A stretch of DNA of 64,000 bases from Polaribacter gangjinensis. GTDB lineage: Bacteria; Bacteroidota; Bacteroidia; Flavobacteriales; Flavobacteriaceae. The position numbers and the translations under genes are program-made. The stretch is from positions 1,815,501 through 1,879,500 of the forward strand of contig NZ_CP150662.1 in the NCBI RefSeq assembly GCF_038024125.1, given 5' to 3'. A model generated the notes under the pieces. The model was not told where the DNA came from. It searched no databases and saw nothing but the letters and a program-made list of their open reading frames with translations. Shown one piece after another: positions 561-50,855 of this stretch. Numbering within the stretch: position 1 is the first letter of the stretch; each line of letters starts with the position of its first letter.

Positions 561-568
561 TATTTTTG
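561..568 (+). promoter_or_regulatory. Putative pgk promoter -7 box
   Basis: TATTTTTG fits the Bacteroidota -7 consensus TAnnTTTG. Transcription would start near 573 and give a 5' leader of about 108 nt containing the structured element at 592-683. The box overlaps an inverted repeat, GTATTTT and AAAATAC (560-578). No clear -33 TTG is seen. Confidence 0.45.
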
Positions 569-591
569 TTGAAAATACATTCATAATGAAA

Positions 592-683
592 TTGCGATTA
601 ACAAAGAGTTTGCATTAGCAAACACCATTAATTGAAAACGCAATCGCATATTTGACCAATTAAAAATACAACTTACAAATATG
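592..683 (+). promoter_or_regulatory. Structured leader element, copy A, pairing with the pgk start codon
   Basis: Three stems can be drawn. P1 is TGCGATT (593-599) with AATCGCA (642-648). P2 is GTTTGC (608-613), loop ATTA, GCAAAC (618-623). P3 is CATATTTG (647-654) with CAAATATG (676-683), which includes the ATG of pgk. P1 and P3 share two bases, so they either stack or compete. A second copy at 29373-29465 keeps P2 and the spacer ACCATTAA unchanged and replaces pairs in P1 and P3 by other complementary pairs. I infer a cis-acting RNA that controls initiation of pgk; the ligand or trigger is unknown. Confidence 0.7.
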
Positions 684-1868
684 AAAACATTACAAGATTT
701 TAATTTTAAAGATAAAAAAGCAATTATTCGTGTTGATTTCAATGTGCCATTGAACAACAAATTCGAAGTAACTGATGCAACAAGAATTGAAGCAGCAAAA
801 TCAACCATCATCAAAATTTTAGAAGATGGAGGAAGTTGTGTTTTGATGTCGCATTTAGGAAGACCAAAAGGCGTTCAAGATGAATTTTCATTGCGTCATA
901 TTGTAAAAGACATCACCAAAATTATTGGTTGTACTGTAAATTTTGTGGACGATTGTATTGGTGAAAAAGCTGAAAAAGCTGCTGCTGAATTGAAAAATGG
1001 TCAAATTTTATTGTTAGAAAATCTTCGTTTTTATGCTGAAGAAGAAAAAGGTGATGTTGCATTTGCAGAAAAATTATCGAAATTGGGAGATATTTATGTA
1101 AATGATGCTTTTGGAACTGCACACAGAGCACATGCTTCAACAACCATTATTGCTCAGTTTTTTGAGGGTAAAAAATGTTTTGGAGAGTTGTTGGTGAGAG
1201 AAATTGAAAGCATTGATAAGGTTTTGAACAATTCCGAAAGACCAGTTTTAGCGATTTTAGGTGGTGCAAAAGTATCCTCTAAAATTACCGTAATTGAAAA
1301 TATTTTAGACAAAGTTGACCATTTAATTTTAGGTGGAGGGATGAGTTTTACCTTTATAAAAGCACATGGTGGAAAAATCGGAAATTCGATTTGTGAAGAT
1401 GATAAAATGGAGTTGGCATTGGAAATTTTGAAAAAAGCCAAAGAAAAAGGTGTTACTGTTCACATTCCTGTGGATGTTGTAGCTGCTGATAAATTTAGTA
1501 ATGATGCAAATACACAAATTTGCGACATCAATAATATTCCTGATGGTTGGGAAGGTGTGGATGCTGGACCAAAATCTCTTGAACTATTTGATGCTGTTGT
1601 AAACCAATGCAAAACGATTTTATGGAACGGACCTTTAGGCGTTTTTGAAATGGAAAAATTCGCCGCAGGTACCATTGCTTTGGGTCATTCAATTGACAAA
1701 GCAACTAAAAACGGAGCGTTTTCTTTAGTTGGTGGTGGAGATTCTGTGGCCGCTGTAAAACAATTCGGATTTGAAGACAAAGTAAGTTACGTTTCTACAG
1801 GTGGAGGTGCTATGTTAGAAATGTTAGAAGGAAAATCATTGCCAGGAATTGATGCAATTCTAAACTAA
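681..1868 (+). CDS. pgk: Phosphoglycerate kinase
   Basis: Catalyses 1,3-bisphosphoglycerate + ADP = 3-phosphoglycerate + ATP in glycolysis and gluconeogenesis. At 395 residues it has the normal bacterial length. The substrate-binding signature RVDFNVP is at residues 17-23, the conserved Arg in DATRI at 35, and SHLGRPKG at 57-64. The C-terminal nucleotide domain carries [18 protein letters not shown] (about 351-359) and [13 protein letters not shown]. The ATG at 681 is the only sensible start; the upstream frame is closed. The start codon is the 3' strand of a predicted RNA stem (592-683), and an intrinsic terminator follows at 1891. It is monocistronic. Confidence 0.98.
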
Positions 1869-29366: not shown

Positions 29367-29372
29367 TATGAA

Positions 29373-29465
29373 ATCGACAATAAAAAAAAGTTTGCGCAAG
29401 CAAACACCATTAAATAAAAAGTCGATTGCATATGTGACCGATAAAAAATATAATTTGCACATATG
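29373..29465 (+). promoter_or_regulatory. Structured leader element, copy B, pairing with the DUF1501 start codon
   Basis: Homologous to the element before pgk. P1 is AATCGAC (29373-29379) with GTCGATT (29421-29427). P2 is GTTTGC, loop GCAA, GCAAAC (29390-29405). P3 is CATATGTG (29429-29436) with CACATATG (29458-29465), which contains the ATG. The last 38 bases align with those of copy A without gaps (31 identical). Differences in P1 and P3 keep the pairing. It lies between two genes of one operon, so it more likely acts on translation than on transcription start. Confidence 0.7.
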
Positions 29466-30653
29466 AAAAGAAGAGATTTTTTAAAGCAATCTGCGCTCGC
29501 AAGTAGCTTATTTTTTATTCCTGGATTTTTAAAAGCTTTTGAAAATTCTAATCCAAATAATTTTGGCTATAAGCGATTGGTAATGATACAATTAGCAGGA
29601 GGAAATGATGGATTAAATACTATTGTTCCTTTTACAAATGACGATTATTACAGAAGCAGACCTAAAATAGCCTTACAAAAAAACGATTTGATTGAAGTTT
29701 CTGATTCTTTAGGATTTCATTCCAGTTTATTACCGTTAAAAAAGTTATACGATCAAGGAAACTTAACTGTTATCAACAATGTTGGGTATCCAAATCCTGA
29801 TCGTTCACATTTTAGAGCTACAGATATTTGGCAAACAGCCAGTAATTCCAATCAATATTGGCAAACTGGTTGGGTTGGAAGGTATTTGGATACTTATGGA
29901 TCAAATGCTTACAATGCCATTGAAATTGATGATAGCTTGTCTTTGTTGATGAAAGGTGAAAATATTAACGGAATTGCAACTCAAAATCCAACGAATTTAT
30001 TCAAATTATCAGAAGACCCATATTTTAAAAATGTTTTGAATCATTACAATGACGAACATTTGAGTGAGCATAATTTGGGCTATTTATACAAAACCATGAT
30101 TGATGCAAAATCATCCTCAAAATACATTTTTGAGAAAAATAAAATTGCTTCAAACAACGCAGATTATCCAAGTAATCAATTTGCAAATCAACTAAAAACA
30201 ACGGCAAAATTGATCAATTCTGGCTTGGAAACTCGCGTATTTTTCTCTTCTCTTGGCGGATTTGATACACACGCAAATCAATTAAATTCACAAAAAAGAT
30301 TGTTGGATATTTATGCAACAAGTATAGAAGCTTTTGTAAATGACTTAAAAAAACAGGGAACTTTCAATGATACGTTGATTGTTACTTTTTCCGAATTTGG
30401 AAGACGTGTAAAAGAAAATGCTGGAAATGGAACAGATCATGGAGCTGCAAGCAATATTTTTATCATTGGAAATCAATTAAAAAAACAAGGTTTTTACAAT
30501 GAATTGGCAAGTTTGTCTGATTTAGATTCGAATGGAGATTTGAAATATACTGTCGATTTTAGAACGATTTATGCCAGTATTTTACAAAATTGGTTAGCTG
30601 TAAATGATGAACAAATTTTACAACAAAAATTCAATTCTTTAGATTTTATCTAA
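29463..30653 (+). CDS. DUF1501 family protein with Tat-type signal
   Basis: 396 residues. The N-terminus MKRRDFLKQSALASSLFFIP carries a twin-arginine motif (RRDFLK) and a hydrophobic core, so it should be exported folded. DUF1501 marks: LVMIQLAGGNDGLNTIVPF (about 39-57), NPDRSHFRATDIWQT, GGFDTHANQ and VTFSEFGRRVKENAGNGTDHGAA (about 306-328), which resemble alkaline-phosphatase-superfamily metal sites. Partner of DUF1800. It ends in a 4-bp overlap with the convergent AlbA_2 gene. The start codon is in stem P3 of the leader element. Confidence 0.92.
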   Translation: MKRRDFLKQSALASSLFFIPGFLKAFENSNPNNFGYKRLVMIQLAGGNDGLNTIVPFTNDDYYRSRPKIALQKNDLIEVSDSLGFHSSLLPLKKLYDQGNLTVINNVGYPNPDRSHFRATDIWQTASNSNQYWQTGWVGRYLDTYGSNAYNAIEIDDSLSLLMKGENINGIATQNPTNLFKLSEDPYFKNVLNHYNDEHLSEHNLGYLYKTMIDAKSSSKYIFEKNKIASNNADYPSNQFANQLKTTAKLINSGLETRVFFSSLGGFDTHANQLNSQKRLLDIYATSIEAFVNDLKKQGTFNDTLIVTFSEFGRRVKENAGNGTDHGAASNIFIIGNQLKKQGFYNELASLSDLDSNGDLKYTVDFRTIYASILQNWLAVNDEQILQQKFNSLDFI

Positions 30654-50781: not shown

Positions 50782-50855
50782 TGGTCCCACCTGGGCTCGA
50801 ACCAGGGACCACCTGATTATGAGTCAGGTGCTCTAACCAACTGAGCTATAGGACC
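50782..50855 (-). tRNA. tRNA with CAU anticodon (tRNA-Met or tRNA-Ile2)
   Basis: 74 nt that fold into a complete cloverleaf: acceptor GGTCCTA/TGGGACC with A73, D-arm GCTC/GAGC, anticodon stem CCTGA/TCAGG with loop CTCATAA, T-arm CCTGG/CCAGG with loop TTCGAGC. CCA is not encoded. It is not an initiator, since the anticodon stem lacks the three G-C pairs. The acceptor has C4-G69 and C5-G68, known features recognised by TilS in tRNA-Ile2, so Ile2 (lysidine) is quite possible, although automatic tools usually say Met. Confidence 0.95.

Follow-up and report, generated by a model that had tools for sequence, protein, structure and literature searches.

The 95-base structured element in front of pgk in the 64,000-nucleotide stretch of Polaribacter gangjinensis DNA analyzed here (the window) is, judging from the pgk loci of close relatives, a recent insertion and not a leader RNA of pgk's own. 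It is very probably a mobile element, and the data overall are likely to be explained by a short mobile element that targets start codons. This element would be approximately 90 to 100 bp long, non-autonomous, and without a gene of its own, and would insert at ATGAAA (or possibly only ATGA), in most cases at a start codon. Its base-paired structure is real and selected.

The evidence for insertion comes from the pgk locus of three relatives (G142, G111, and G006), whose PGK is 97%, 93%, and 93% identical to that of the window. Their pgk leaders contain no element. They align with the window through TATTTTTG to ..ACATTCA and then continue directly with ATGAAAACATTACAAG, where the window has exactly 95 extra bases at the native start, with ends that are ambiguous by 6 bases because ATGAAA is repeated on both sides. 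Nine plus three further pgk leaders of the same genus were found by reading to lack the element. Empty sites in relatives and a defined target, as expected of a mobile element, are thus both present at pgk. The layout is that of a native ATGAAA on the left, the element, and a second ATGAAA on the right that is the start of the gene, and it recurs in other copies. A sequence-only reading had proposed a leader RNA belonging to pgk; this is argued against by the absence of the element at pgk in close relatives and by its occurrence before unrelated genes, and further by the genome-specific subfamilies, the tandem arrays, the insertions away from starts, and a P1/P3 register that is not common to the other copies. 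In one further genome (G016), a second pgk-like copy (L042-L044, G016:C1:1205-2382) has decayed and contains several stop codons, the intact pgk being located elsewhere.

The three-stem structure drawn near the pgk ATG was largely borne out. P2 and P3 are exact in the sequence (Table 1), and the pgk start codon sits in the 3' arm of P3, where it pairs with a CAT in the 5' arm; the same is seen in 77 to 78 of 80 aligned copies. P1 can be drawn at 593-599/642-648, as had been done, but the minimum-energy fold and the consensus of six copies agree on a different register, 591-596/639-644, which matches the other copies (29372-29378/29421-29427 in the second copy). Since P1 in this register overlaps no base of P3, the switch that had been proposed from two shared bases loses its basis. 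The second copy does preserve P2 and ACCATTAA, and the compensatory exchange in P3, from U652-A678 at pgk to G29434-C29460, is confirmed. Both elements are real, and each is slightly longer than had been given. Folding of the pgk copy and of the second copy beats 200 of 200 dinucleotide shuffles in both cases (z of −3.95 and −4.48, respectively), and the core pattern, allowing up to three mismatches, occurs twice in the window against 0.11 expected. The sequence TATTTTTG upstream of pgk is called promoter-like on the basis of TAnnTTTG, the promoter consensus of the phylum Bacteroidota; the element, lying downstream of it, would be transcribed whole.

Table 1. Features of the two element copies in the window and loci of the second element family.
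Feature	Position	Strand	Basis or remark
Promoter-like TATTTTTG	561..568	+	Upstream of pgk; unchanged in empty-site pgk leaders of G142, G111, and G006
Element copy 1, 95-bp insertion	586..680 (equally 592-686; 6-bp repeat ambiguity)	+	Empty-site alignment with G142, G111, and G006; covariance model match, 111.2 bits
Left ATGAAA repeat, native pgk start position, now start of upstream ORF	586..591	+	Sequence, empty sites
Upstream ORF, 10 codons, stop TAG 616-618	586..618	+	Sequence
P1 5' arm	591..596	+	Folds, covariation
P1 3' arm	639..644	+	Folds, covariation
P2 5' arm	608..613	+	Folds, covariation
P2 3' arm	618..623	+	Folds, covariation
P3 5' arm	647..654	+	Folds, covariation
P3 3' arm, includes pgk start codon 681-683	676..683	+	Folds, covariation
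Right ATGAAA repeat, pgk start	681..686	+	Sequence, empty sites
pgk (phosphoglycerate kinase)	681..1868	+	PF00162, E 2.5e-156
Element copy 2	29368..29462	+	Covariance model match, 116.8 bits; folds
Copy 2 stem P2	29390-29395/29400-29405	+	Folds
Copy 2 stem P3	29429-29436/29458-29465	+	Folds
Copy 2 upstream ORF, 32 codons plus stop	29368..29466	+	Sequence; ends in ATGA overlap with next gene
Gene after copy 2 (DUF1501)	29463..30653	+	PF07394, E 7.6e-31
Second-family loci in G341	L254 1534 (− strand); L255; L234; L240; L182; L112; L113

Copies of the element are numerous, both in this genome and across the class. A pattern search of the genome, a single contig of 2.94 Mb, gave six good copies, and the covariance model built from these (R1) found 11 copies at an E value of 6e-4 or better; three further matches with E values of 0.6 to 8 (L056-L058) were taken as noise and kept outside the tallies. 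All 11 copies are bounded by an ATGAAA at each end, the right-hand one starting an ORF of at least 160 codons. A Pfam scan of 10 of the 11 downstream genes returned nine different families (PGK, DUF1501, acyltransferase, cytidine deaminase, MobA-like NTP transferase, FAD oxidoreductase, family 25 glycosyltransferase, ABC-2 permease, and LpxK) and one gene without a match at an E value of 1e-5. No common pathway was found among these ten genes, whereas a cis-regulatory RNA would be expected to precede related or orthologous ones.

The covariance-model search of Flavobacteriaceae that the sequence-only reading had suggested gave matches at an E value of 0.01 or better in 30 of 397 genomes of the family (24 of 237 genera) and in 10 of 166 genomes of the same genus, own genome included in both; the E values are per genome, so that about four of the family positives and about two of the same-genus positives could be chance. 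Two loci were left out of the tallies, namely, a match from the family search that does not resemble a copy (L096, E value of 0.001) and one that was cut and not located (L107). With a second model, built from 80 copies, 69 of 395 genomes in the class (37 of 196 genera) had a match at an E value of 0.001, with less than one match expected by chance. When more candidates were scored (102 per genome) in 40 chosen genomes, 36 had a match at an E value of 0.05. At E values of up to 0.05, G378 had at least 101 copies, G341 and G491 had 50 each, G305 had 36, G290 and G399 had 32 each, and G487 had 31. A scan of a contig collection with the right-end pattern gave at least 119 stretches, and the 80 titles listed among them are of genera that belong to the Bacteroidota. 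The same pattern had no match among viral contigs, and blastn gave no plasmid hit for copy 1 and no phage hit for copy 2; a phage, plasmid, or viral source was rejected on these searches.

Membership in an existing Rfam family, with Flavo-1 as the candidate for comparison, did not hold up, as none of 4,227 Rfam models, Flavo-1 presumably among them, matched the element. The scan at gathering scores returned two tRNAs and nothing else, and the four matches at E values of up to 10 all fall far below their own gathering scores, none of them being credible for a riboswitch filed in Rfam. The Rfam scan places a tRNA gene at window positions 50782-50855 on the − strand.

The copies behave as those of a mobile element do in several further respects. 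Subfamilies are genome specific, and in G341 several near-identical copies precede unrelated genes. With each copy the target is formed anew, and units are also arranged in tandem; of the 21 copies read in G378, 13 are flanked on the left by the right end of a different unit. The window genome shares a 3.1-kb stretch, holding one copy and an ABC-2 permease gene, with a genome from a different genus at 95.7% identity (L053 and L274); by eye, a paired change has preserved P2 in this copy. This stretch likely reflects a recent horizontal transfer that included the element, and the near-identity across genera indicates that copies may also travel with genes. In several copies (L301, L309, L348, and others), another hairpin repeat, CTGTGCTGAGCGCAGTCGAAG, was seen by eye to be nested within the P3 arm; it is perhaps a REP of the RAYT type.

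A second element family with the same right-hand design, measuring 138 to 149 bases from start codon to start codon, is present in G341. When only its left part was searched for, eight hits were obtained, comprising seven with the hairpin and one gene start without it. The 3' arm of the hairpin ends in the start codon, and the 5' arm is complementary at 8 of 8 positions in six copies and at 7 of 8 in the remaining copy. Four copies start with ATG, matched by CAT, and three with GTG, matched by CAC.

Selection on base pairing was supported well beyond the two copies from which it had been proposed. The alignment comprised 80 copies, 17 that were apparently truncated, decayed, or interrupted (many of the G491 type) and exact duplicates having been left out, a choice that favors pairing. 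Standard pairs occupy 86.1% of the P1, P2, and P3 cells, compared to 72.5% after shuffling and 27 to 40% when the arms are slid. Changes on both sides of a pair occur in 150 cells, compared to 49 in the shuffles, none of which (0 of 500) reaches 150, and the covariation score is 0.334 versus 0.113. Pairs showing at least one double change (11 versus 9.2) and pair types (32 versus 30) are not clearly more numerous than in the shuffles. RNAalifold recovered the P1 core and P3 from the same alignment, and did not recover P2. When one copy was taken from each of 29 genomes, the P1 core and P3 had 271 of 290 Watson-Crick cells, compared to a mean of 199 and a maximum of 218 in 2,000 shuffles, and 58 double changes, compared to a mean of 15.7 and a maximum of 27. 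Perfectly paired P1 arms take 12 different forms in 22 of the 29 genomes. P2 is weaker, with 75.5% of its cells paired, and in some subfamilies a GA/GA step was seen by eye within P1. Mismatches of the G-T type, which would be G-U in the sense RNA, are about as frequent as those of the A-C type, which would be G-U on the opposite strand (17 versus 15 in P1 and P3, and 29 versus 21 with P2 included), which does not point to continued selection on the sense RNA in place.

The position of the copies relative to genes was explored for 161 copies, the best scoring among several hundred matched, with orthologous copies counted apart. An ORF start was accepted when the ORF was at least 60 aa long or ran off the fetched stretch. 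It was observed that 132 copies end directly at an ORF start, 10 do so after further tandem units, and 19 lie elsewhere; 142 of 161 thus lead to an ORF start. In comparison, the window itself has 161 ATGAAA sites by the analysis's own ORF list, of which 14 are gene starts, 1 is near a start, 123 are within coding sequence, and 23 are between genes. Considering only the sites where an insertion would not be disruptive, 15 of 38 are at or near a start, the rest being intergenic. The enrichment at starts exceeds what the loss of disruptive insertions would give, so that targeting or function must add something. One insertion away from a start, at ATGAAATAA, lies at the end of a 245-codon open frame, of which the element restores the same last codons, and some of the others are intergenic. 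The occurrence of insertions away from starts argues that the target is a DNA motif. Pyrimidines occupy position −1 in 85% of 84 insertions, compared to 39% of 118 element-free ATGAAA starts, a preference that stems in part from tandem neighbors in G341.

Insertion at a start codon leaves the left ATGAAA as the start of an upstream ORF, which was followed in 149 copies with a left start codon, 11 of 160 having been set aside for want of a usable left start or for being too short. In 129 copies this ORF stops upstream of the new start, and in 3 it runs beyond it in another frame. In the other 17 it stops on the new start with an ATGA overlap, which makes 11.4% of the 149 copies, compared to 3.8% of shuffled ones; in-frame fusion is seen in 0 of 149, compared to 3.2%; the copies in both comparisons are not independent. 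A conserved leader peptide, first considered in view of open frames in some of the best six copies, was dropped because the lengths and stops of the upstream ORFs vary. Many of them stop after a few codons, which is not what a leader-peptide attenuator would show.

These data bear on whether the element, once inserted, has become useful. A selfish element turned useful would be a mobile translation-start cassette, made of upstream ORF and start hairpin and kept to tune or couple translation. The enrichment at starts beyond purifying selection, the threefold excess of ATGA overlaps together with the lack of in-frame fusions, the slow change of retained copies, and the cross-genus transfer with a gene all agree with such a role. 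When orthologous copies from four close genomes were compared, identity of the element was 88 to 100% in 16 comparisons and 81%, with 22 gap positions, in one (the decayed L073); in 17 of 17 this exceeds the identity at fourfold-degenerate sites of the next gene, which is 56 to 77% and, in one very close pair, 96%. However, the 200 bases upstream of the element are 88 to 100% identical in 14 of the 15 comparisons measured, and the element is therefore not special in this respect. The slow change may reflect only the A-rich initiation region, and in many copies the upstream ORF stops a long way from the new start. Constraint on the element in place is possible on these identities, and we consider a cassette of this kind rather unlikely.

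A cis-regulatory leader RNA (riboswitch, thermosensor, or protein site) that sequesters the ATG in P3, with the spread of copies being secondary, is quite improbable. It would account for the covarying stems, for the start codon in P3 of nearly all aligned copies, for the predominance of gene starts among the classified copies, and for the slow change of copies persisting in related genomes. It fits poorly with the empty pgk sites of three close relatives, the unrelated downstream genes, the lack of an Rfam match, and the 19 copies not at an ORF start. The lack of a clear excess of G-T over A-C mismatches also speaks against it, as does the decay of some orthologous copies (L073 and L070). Substitutions in place do not avoid the stems either: 18 of 360 paired and 14 of 342 other positions are changed, counted on minimum-energy pairs of which some are doubtful, and stem-specific selection in place was not seen. 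A chance repeat or two unrelated hairpins, for which the tendency of A+T-rich intergenic DNA to make weak hairpins could be invoked, is refuted beyond reasonable doubt by the 11 genome copies, the class-wide matches, and the exact insertion.

Given the preferred reading of a mobile element at start codons, an enzyme that moves it was sought. The Y1 transposase family PF01797 was found at E values of up to 0.001 in 14 of 20 element-positive genomes and in 9 of 20 other genomes, one of which (G020) later gave one weak element match; two of the six positive genomes without PF01797 carry 31 and 32 copies. None of the 43 loci fetched for PF01797 was a classical TnpA locus with an element match at an E value below 3. 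With PF01797 missing in these positives and no matching ends at TnpA loci, the Y1 transposases examined, RAYTs apart, were rejected as the mobilizer. Of seven RAYT-like loci read by eye, six are flanked by other palindromes. Three RAYT-like loci (L167, L182, and L184) have a copy within approximately 1 kb, with E values of 0.0001, 0.065, and 2.2, and each of these copies precedes a neighboring gene; the RAYTs examined were rejected on both counts. At L182 (G341:C2:400-3900) the RAYT-like gene has, by eye, a cas9-like ORF on one side and cas1 on the other, and elements are found in the interval from cas1 to cas2. The only PF01797 match of G000 (L109, G000:C1:669663-672812, − strand) is a Y1-transposase-like stretch inside an open frame of approximately 1,050 aa that by eye looks like a restriction-modification methyltransferase.

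The search for a gene-bearing unit gave no candidate. The right-end pattern, a narrow one with six hits, revealed no autonomous ORF-bearing unit in G341, G249, and G201, and no copy with an internal ORF was seen on reading 80 of the at least 119 pattern-matched stretches; an ORF of at least 80 aa is present in 66 of 83 such stretches. Clustering of 1,462 ORFs from 356 loci, in which clusters present in at least four loci were judged by eye, showed no recurrent mobile gene except the TnpA and RAYT genes for which loci had been fetched. The one unclear recurrent cluster beside copies turned out to be a sulfatase.

Among known systems, the closest parallels are short structured repeats. PATEs, derived from IS200/IS605, are short, lack inverted terminal repeats, and have a hairpin near each end and a fixed short target that is also present at the right end. 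The present element is alike in each of these features: it has subterminal hairpins at both ends and a fixed site without variable target duplication, and inspection of the 80-copy alignment revealed no terminal inverted repeats, as a MITE of a DDE transposon would have. It differs in that its target, ATGAAA, is usually a start codon, that its hairpin arms vary freely with compensation, and that the search for a Y1 transposase with such ends gave none, PF01797 being absent from 6 of 20 positive genomes. HEARO RNAs, or IscB OMEGA elements, have an ATGA target, are larger, and carry a gene. They resemble this element in being structured and located at an ATGA-like site, whereas the copies here are shorter, have no internal ORF, and have no Rfam match; no paper on HEARO with ATGA was found in the open-access literature. 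A MITE with a minisatellite from P. gingivalis (PMC4596501) is likewise a short mobile repeat from the same phylum, reportedly an inverted-repeat element, and it is by this title and not by sequence that it is set apart.

Many Rickettsia palindromic elements (RPE) lie in frame inside ORFs, in contrast with the present element, for which no in-frame fusion was seen. REP/BIME sequences with RAYT share with this element the presence of many short structured repeats per genome, but REPs are extragenic by name, whereas this element replaces start codons, and six of the seven RAYT-like genes read here are flanked by palindromes other than this element. REP has a size of 20 to 40 bp (PMC3733652), compared to approximately 95 bp here. 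The same paper describes RPE as short palindromic elements that are tolerated at coding sequence (PMC3733652), two features in which they are like this element. No description of an element such as the present one was found in the open-access literature, and one may exist elsewhere.

We propose that the start-codon-targeting element moves as a folded single strand by means of a separate enzyme; single-stranded DNA would be likelier than RNA, although our judgment on movement as folded single-stranded DNA is nearly balanced. After insertion, the native promoter and initiation site would serve a short upstream ORF whose stop lies ahead of the new start or on it, and the A-rich loop of P3 would provide the new initiation region, which may be why genes tolerate insertion at their start. 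If P3 pairing or coupling to the upstream ORF has a regulatory effect, this would be a by-product, and it appears unlikely that the element usefully regulates the gene downstream. More tentatively, the data may point to an undescribed transposition system of Bacteroidia that targets the translation start. It would comprise at least two families, with a right hairpin holding the start codon and CAT or CAC matched to ATG or GTG, possibly a strand-specific enzyme, tandem stacking, and portable start cassettes that rewire dozens of genes.

If the proposal of a mobile element at start codons is right, many genes of the Flavobacteriaceae and of the class would have a translation start delivered by a mobile element and a hidden upstream ORF, which would bear on gene annotation, on the prediction of translation, and on the evolution of expression. 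It also raises the question of which enzyme moves a folded element of 95 bases that has no gene, and of how start codons are found.
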